64,000 nt of DNA. Origin: Ruminococcaceae bacterium R-25 (lineage in GTDB: Bacteria > Bacillota > Clostridia > Saccharofermentanales > Saccharofermentanaceae). Location: positions 1,550,001-1,614,000 of the forward strand of contig QGFZ01000001.1 in NCBI GenBank assembly GCA_003149065.1, in the 5' to 3' direction. A model generated the notes under the pieces. The model ran no database searches and was not told where the DNA came from. It saw nothing but the letters and a program-made list of their open reading frames with translations. The first letter of the stretch is position 1. Each line of letters opens with the position of its first letter. Made by a program: the position numbers and the translations under genes. Below, piece by piece: positions 16,524 through 55,905 of this stretch.

Positions 16524-16567
16524 ACATAGGGCTGCTTTTTTTCCTGAATCCAGACCTGACACTAAAA

Positions 16568-16740
16568 ATCCCCGCAAAGTTCTCGACATACGGTGACTTT
16601 ATCGAGAAAAATGGGCCAAATAAGGCTAAAATCCCTGCAAAGTTCTCGACGTACGGTAACTTTGTCGAGAAAAACGGCCCAAACACAGCAATAATCCCCG
16701 CAAAGTTCTCGACAAGCAGTGACCTTGCAGGGATTTTTTC
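16568..16740. repeat. 63-bp tandem repeat array of hairpins ending in a terminator
   Basis: Units start at 16568, 16631 and 16694. Each begins ATCCC(C/T)GCAAAG and carries TTCTCGA, a 15-base loop and, in units 1 and 2, TCGAGAA. The third unit is cut short: its ATCCCCGCAA arm pairs with TTGCAGGGAT followed by TTTTTT, making the terminator of the FMN reductase operon. Units 1 and 2 differ at a few positions, mostly in ways that keep the stem. The array is open in plus and minus frames, but the pattern is structural, not coding. Confidence 0.8.
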
Positions 16741-16759
16741 TTAGTTAAAAATTTTGGCG

Positions 16760-55261: not shown

Positions 55262-55291
55262 TTCCTATTTCTCCTGTTGTAAGTTTTATGA

Positions 55292-55341
55292 CAAGTATAC
55301 TTGGCAATTTGAATAATAGCATTGCGAAGTTTACTTGTCAA
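55292..55341 (-). promoter_or_regulatory. Promoter with paired operators for the XRE operon
   Basis: On the minus strand TTGACA (55336-55341), 17-base spacer, TATTAT (55313-55318). A perfect palindrome CAAGTATACTTG lies at 55292-55303, downstream of the -10; a related site (CAAGTAAACTTC read on the minus strand, 55326-55337) overlaps the -35. Centres are 34 bp apart. Confidence 0.8.
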
Positions 55342-55408: not shown

Positions 55409-55605
55409 TGTATCGAAAACGCTTGTTTTTTATGTGTTTTCGATACAACGGAGTGAGATGCTGTATCGAAAAGGGGGATTTTTATGAGGTTTTCGATACA
55501 AAAACGCGAATTTGTATCGAAAACGGGGTATTCTGAAGTGGTTTTCGATACACCAAAGTGCAAGCTTGTATCGAAAGAGGTGTATTTTTCGAGCTTTTCG
55601 ATACA
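55409..55605. repeat. Array of four long hairpins from alternating inverted 12-mers
   Basis: TGTATCGAAAAC (or close) at 55409, 55462, 55513 and 55567 alternates with GTTTTCGATACA at 55436, 55489, 55541 and 55594. Starts are spaced about 24-28 bp throughout. Each pair can form a 12-bp stem with a 15-16 base loop; loops and gaps differ in sequence. There is no gene in 55342-55606. No other copy was noticed in the window. Confidence 0.9.
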
Positions 55606-55628
55606 GTTAAACGCGATTTAAATGATGA

Positions 55629-55905
55629 TTATACCACCCTCGGCACAAACCCTTCCCAATACGACAGCCCGTACCCTCTCTCGAATAAAGGTTCCACATC
55701 AGGTGGCACTGCTTGGCTTCATTAGCCGTGATGAGTCCCATCTGATAAGCGAGCTTCTCGTCATTTGCAGCGCCTATGCCGATATTATGAGGAAAGTAGA
55801 CCGCATCTCTGCAATATCCGACACCATGAACATCATCCTGGGCAAGCAGCATCGGTATTCCAGCTTCAGACTCTATCGCGGCTTTCTCAAAGTTGAAACC
55901 ATTCG
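55629..55905 (-). pseudogene. GH3 beta-glucosidase remnant with internal deletion
   Basis: A minus-strand frame carries AAIESEAGIPMLLAQDDVHG and FPHNIGIGAANDEKLAYQMG, the start of a GH3 N-terminal domain (IPLLFGQDVIHG-like). Shortly after, a different frame carries LFERGYGLSYWEGF followed by VPRVV and a stop, the GH3 C-terminal end. The hundreds of residues between are gone, with a frameshift at the joint. No start signal remains. Confidence 0.8.

Follow-up and report, generated by a model that had tools for sequence, protein, structure and literature searches.

Dispersed arrays of alternating inverted arms with predicted intrinsic curvature in a Ruminococcaceae-type genus

Dispersed palindromic repeats are familiar mainly from Gammaproteobacteria with RAYT transposases, and the neisserial NIME/dRS3 elements, like other repeats of intergenic mosaics, are short inverted sequences set at intervals. 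Phased A-tract DNA is curved, kinetoplast-type bends being one form. In E. coli and relatives, BIME/REP elements are dispersed through extragenic DNA at many loci in alternating orientation and at regular spacing, and a protein-binding and chromosome-organising role has been proposed for them (PMC2817692, PMC6379681); E. coli BIME-2 elements are gyrase sites in vivo (PMC6379681). The REPINs of the Pseudomonas REPIN-RAYT system have two conserved inverted ends, separated by a spacer whose length is set and whose sequence is less conserved, and form species-specific families (PMC3116915). Bent intergenic DNA has been described in bacteria (PMC4060949), and intrinsic curvature pins plectonemes, for which one 75-bp curved sequence is enough (PMC6301789).

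Here we analyse an array found in a 64-kb stretch of DNA (the window, by which we mean the whole stretch) together with its relatives in the source genome and in congeners. The arrays share the listed traits of BIME/REP elements, but a REP palindrome is 20–40 bp long with a GTAG-type head, whereas the arrays have no GTAG/GTRG head and consist of 39-bp units with a 13–17-bp loop, without RAYT and with tracts phased for curvature; the source family, moreover, occupies approximately 15–18 loci compared with more than 100 for BIME/REP. Likewise, the conserved ends, set-length spacer and species-specific families of REPINs are all found here, but a genomic Y1 transposase and compensatory hairpin evolution are not, and the standard module has four units where a REPIN is one. 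With intrinsically curved DNA the arrays have in common A/T tracts approximately 10.5 bp apart over nearly 200 bp, an intergenic position and nearness to terminators; they differ in that a dispersed repeat family, whose inverted, sequence-specific arms do not vary, bears the predicted bend, and in that several such families exist side by side. Compared by description, regular helical pitch and curvature distinguish them from NIME/dRS3, to which we know of no sequence relation. A CRISPR array (direct repeats of 23–47 bp, unique spacers) was considered and rejected, given that successive 12-mers face opposite ways and that loops at different loci resemble one another at matching positions. Literature searches of limited scope returned no earlier description of these arrays.

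All eight 12-mer sites of the original prediction, alternating between TGTATCGAAAAC and its inverse, are present at the coordinates claimed (Table 1), with start-to-start steps of 27, 26, 27, 24, 28, 26 and 27 bp. Five of the eight are exact, those at 55462 and 55594 carry one mismatch and that at 55567 carries two. Together they make four inverted-arm units of 39, 39, 40 and 39 bp, separated by gaps of 14, 12 and 14 bp, which gives a unit pitch of 53/51/54 bp. Sites of this type with up to two mismatches number 18 in the whole window compared with 6.9 expected from dinucleotide-preserving shuffles, and eight of the 18 are packed within 197 bp, far beyond chance; a de novo detector run on 400 kb of sequence from an order-1 Markov model found no arrays of alternating inverted words. 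The loops had been described as unrelated. They are instead 15 (16) bp long, with an A/T tract whose helical phase is fixed, and correspond by homology at each position to the loops of other copies. The array sits upstream of the XRE promoter, and the palindrome overlapping that promoter is probably the XRE/DUF6442 operon's own autoregulatory operator, separate from the array; the operon was rejected as the source of the array because it has this operator of its own. The GH3 relic has an intact counterpart in the congener G019, a 623-aa gene (L098:13786-15657).

Table 1. Features of the window (positions within the 64-kb stretch) and array families of other arms (genomes in place of positions)
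Feature	Position or genome	Strand	Description
Complete four-unit array	55409..55605	+	Orientation set by central spacer AAAACGCGAATTT; highest predicted curvature of any 190-bp segment in the window
Unit 1, 39 bp	55409..55447	+	TGTATCGAAAAC - 15 - GTTTTCGATACA
Unit 2, 39 bp	55462..55500	+	TGTATCGAAAAG - 15 - GTTTTCGATACA
Central 12-bp spacer AAAACGCGAATT	55501..55512	+	Kept between copies; outer spacers 14 bp
Unit 3, 40 bp	55513..55552	+	TGTATCGAAAAC - 16 - GTTTTCGATACA
Unit 4, 39 bp	55567..55605	+	TGTATCGAAAGA - 15 - CTTTTCGATACA
Phased A/T tract segment	55412..55602	.	Predicted bend 277 degrees over 190 bp
GH3 gene relic, internal deletion	55607..55893	-	Neighbour adjoining the array, outside the array proper
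Promoter-like site TTGACA-17-TATTAT and 18-bp palindrome TGACAAGTATACTTGGCA	55289..55341	-	Precedes the XRE/DUF6442 operon
Second window array, other dispersed family	16565..16753	.	63-bp repeat in 3 copies, core GCAAAGTTCTCGAC-TACGGT-ACTTTG
Family TTCTATCGGAAA	G031 only		12 exact pairs; pitch 50 bp
Family D, TTACGTACTAA-17-TTAGTACGTAA	G000, G019, G022		3–5 units; pitch 73 bp
Family CGACGGACCAAAA	G031		Four units; pitch 74 bp
Family TTACTTACTGA	G026		Five units; pitch 73 bp

The array is a dispersed repeat, one module copy among many. In the 3.07-Mb source genome the pair TGTATCGAAA-N10..30-TTTTCGATACA has 43 forward and 38 reverse matches (81 strand-wise), compared with 0 genome-wide for a reversed control pattern. 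These matches resolve into approximately 15 four-unit arrays and three remnants (L051, L061 and L227), that is, about 18 places on three contigs; some of the four-unit arrays have a fifth, degenerate unit and one is partly decayed. The steps run 27-26-27-24-27-26-27, near clockwork, in the 14 well-preserved arrays. Copies are approximately 70–95% identical to one another over about 200 bp, and some have extra flank in common. The arrays lie between unrelated genes, nearly always with at least one gene 3' end adjoining, and a convergent-gene setting is weakly enriched (14 of 37 versus 21.5%, p = 0.025). Neither a neighbouring gene nor a binding-protein gene recurs among the flanking genes of the copies, and a common neighbour gene as driver of the arrays was therefore rejected.

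At argG, the one locus that was closely compared, the array of the source genome lies directly behind the terminator. Congeners that are approximately 90–93% identical in argG have the terminator and lack the array, hence the array is not essential at this locus. A MITE would have terminal inverted repeats, a target-site duplication and a parent transposon; the argG flanks are too diverged from those of the congeners for such a duplication to show, and no parent element was recognised among the genes flanking arrays. Among 58 other genomes only one, G019, has the source pair, and has it once; an exact-pair scan of GTDB genomes gave mostly lone unrelated pairs and a single relevant record, again G019.

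Among the 56 units of the source family, arm positions 1–10 have 11 changes in 1120, the loops are 44–57% identical between copies and the loop length is 15 in 50 of the 56. In nine gap-free copies the arms differ by 2.1% and the remaining positions by 44%. A change of 1% at arm positions 1–10 against 44% elsewhere bears out the proposal that the arms are under selection, although the arms could also have been kept alike by intact copies transposing repeatedly. No compensated pairs occur at arm positions 1–10 of the 56 units, all changes being single-sided. Family D has a loop length of 17 in 34 of 34 units, and at its position 6 the common T/G variant is distributed independently over left and right arms (Fisher p = 0.65). 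That arm changes are uncompensated argues against an RNA stem and fits half-sites in duplex DNA.

The A/T tracts of the arrays are phased at the helical repeat, which is the mark of intrinsically curved DNA: runs of at least three are spaced at its multiples (peaks at 10–12, 20–22, 30–32, 40–43, 51–54 and 62–64 bp), with a best period of 10.45 bp and a coherence of 0.85. A dinucleotide wedge model, with hand-entered wedge parameters, predicts bends of 214–307 degrees per 190 bp for the arrays compared with a genome mean of 47 and a 99th percentile of 136; these values lie 5.3–9.3 standard scores (z) above shuffles and in the top 0.1% of the genome sample. Parameter-free tract-phase sums agree with the model (5.1–11.6 versus a background 99th percentile of 4.5). 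If the arms are kept and the loops and spacers are shuffled, the predicted bend drops to approximately 145 degrees and the observed value is reached in 0–4 of 300 shuffles, which indicates that loop placement serves the phase. The top 20 or so curved windows of about 0.5 Mb scanned include all 15 four-unit arrays, and other highly curved windows of the source genome are arrays too (L235, four units at 52 bp; L240, three at 63 bp). Within the 64-kb window the array ranks first in predicted curvature, and second comes 16558-16748 (predicted 211 degrees), an array of another family with a pitch of 63 bp. Several sister families are strongly curved while L231, L187 and L216 are unremarkable (40th–68th percentile), hence curvature is clearest for the source family.

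Sampling for alternating inverted words, independently of sequence, showed that congeners carry modules of the same design built on different arms (Table 1). Further array families occur in G006, G026 and the source genome, where the family of the second window array is also present at C2:447475-447628, C3:264485 and C4:94712-94802. G031 has one family-D match of 34 bp that may be chance, G016 one two-unit case in 400 kb and unrelated loci one doubtful case in 233 kb; no arrays were found in 200 kb each of the more distant congeners G001 and G005, and no array families in Markov-shuffled DNA. The 18 families, collected without regard to pitch, fall at 50–52, 61–64 and 73–74 bp, approximately 5, 6 and 7 helical turns. 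Their pitches cluster at a 10.5-bp period (Rayleigh p ~4e-6), although families in one pitch class may share descent, so that the effective number is smaller than 18; the robust statement is that the pitches form three classes separated by one turn of the helix. Family D has two arrays that are orthologous between species, and the region of one (L203:1441-1730 / L196) is 92% identical across species while the flanking coding DNA is 77–85% identical, which implies either constraint in place or recent segment exchange. The same design with different repeats in relatives suggests that a DNA-architecture or repeat system has gone unrecognised.

On balance we lean towards reading the array as a dispersed, BIME-like module that works at the DNA level, with predicted intrinsic curvature, sequence-specific sites and a probably architectural role. 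Such a module typically consists of four 39-bp units, each with two inverted 10–12-bp arms flanking a 15-bp loop, and its arms, loops and spacers together give almost every turn of the helix an A/T tract, so that the 196-bp module is predicted to be curved intrinsically. The arms are putative sequence-specific sites in a geometry apparently dictated by the double helix, a combination that suggests action as duplex DNA rather than RNA. Placed usually just behind a gene 3' end, the module may serve as an architectural element in which the curved segment of eight half-sites positions supercoils (plectoneme tips) and the arms recruit a DNA-binding protein that acts in trans, much as E. coli BIMEs bind gyrase or nucleoid proteins. 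New copies would spread through a trans-acting activity, and families with new arms would replace one another between species. A nucleoid or phage-type protein-binding array had been proposed; its binding and architectural part agrees with this reading, which we consider the best, and its phage part lacks support, given that phage, plasmid and IMG/VR searches returned no relatives of the array. We hold it doubtful that a sub-clade of the genus runs several parallel systems of curved half-site arrays in helical phase, at pitches of 5, 6 and 7 turns and each with its own fast-evolving DNA-binding protein, in which arms and proteins co-evolve from one sister species to another as a chromosome-organising code unlike REP/BIME or known nucleoid systems.

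The main rival is REPIN-like mobile DNA, a selfish miniature element of REPIN/BIME type whose arms are the sites of a transposition enzyme, whose curvature serves the transposition complex and which has no cellular function. We regard it as possible rather than probable. The arrays are dispersed and missing at argG in the congeners compared, there is turnover of families from one close species to the next, similarity among copies is graded, and conserved arms with variable spacers are found in REPINs as well (PMC3116915); the arms would stay conserved simply because only intact copies spread. However, a search for PF01797 (Y1/RAYT transposase) found none in the source genome (G000) or in the array-bearing relatives G019, G022 and G031 while control genomes gave matches, no gene recurs beside the arrays, and the compensatory stem changes that REPINs show (PMC3116915) are missing. 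Selfish spread also accounts poorly for orthologous family-D arrays kept in situ between species, one of them better conserved than coding DNA. The original prediction had itself named a dispersed repeat with a known transposase as the finding that would count against it, and of this the dispersal is real and the transposase is not, there being no Y1/RAYT in the genome.

The other readings are weaker. In an operator or centromere-type array, one defined protein (a phage repressor, a ParB/ParR-like protein or a resolvase) would bind and curvature would be irrelevant; this is quite improbable, for although the half-sites alternate in orientation at helical spacing and the window copy adjoins an XRE gene, that operon has its own palindrome at the promoter, other copies adjoin unrelated genes, no phage, plasmid or viral relatives were found, and the arrangement for curvature extends beyond the arms to loops and spacers. 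We consider a transcript made of serial hairpins (a terminator, an mRNA stabiliser or a processed sRNA), which had also been suggested, very improbable. Uncompensated arm changes, the independent left and right alleles of family D, and a fixed loop length and helical pitch, which are unexpected for RNA, all oppose it, and Rfam scans of the window locus and ten related loci gave only chance hits and unrelated tRNA and FMN elements, none at the arrays. The array does fold far better than shuffles (z -6.85) and arrays do follow terminators and gene 3' ends, but inverted repeats by themselves bring a low folding energy, and the predicted structure is a nest of distant arms and not four hairpins. 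Chance, or a local tandem expansion without function, is scarcely credible: slippage could in principle yield tandem units, but no result supports it, shuffled DNA has zero arrays, and the units of one array have different loops, yet the four-unit layout recurs at about 15 loci. This genome-wide recurrence at unlinked loci refutes chance and local expansion alike, and it gives no support to the earlier idea of an expansion hotspot.

A Ruminococcaceae-type genus, then, has many such repeat families without RAYT, in the form of approximately 200-bp stretches in which A/T tracts are phased and the inverted arms do not vary. Given that curvature alone can position supercoils, the modules offer a natural, repeated and sequence-defined test of plectoneme and topoisomerase placement near gene ends. 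The arms switch between species while the geometry stays, which provides a handle for finding the protein partner or the mobilising enzyme.

The arms of the 73–74-bp pitch class (L117:7770, L229:4351, L242:15503 and others) resemble a drifted YKACGGACYAA-like motif, as if binding specificity drifts between species. In G034 (L073), the terminator 3' of argG is followed by a Y1 (IS200-like) transposase gene, at the spot taken by the array in the source genome. The G019 unit of the source family lies within a 532-bp block, comprising a small membrane protein gene and the array unit, that is 93% identical across the two species (L103:10113-10644 and L061:5500-6030); the similarity stops at the array, as if at a recombination junction.
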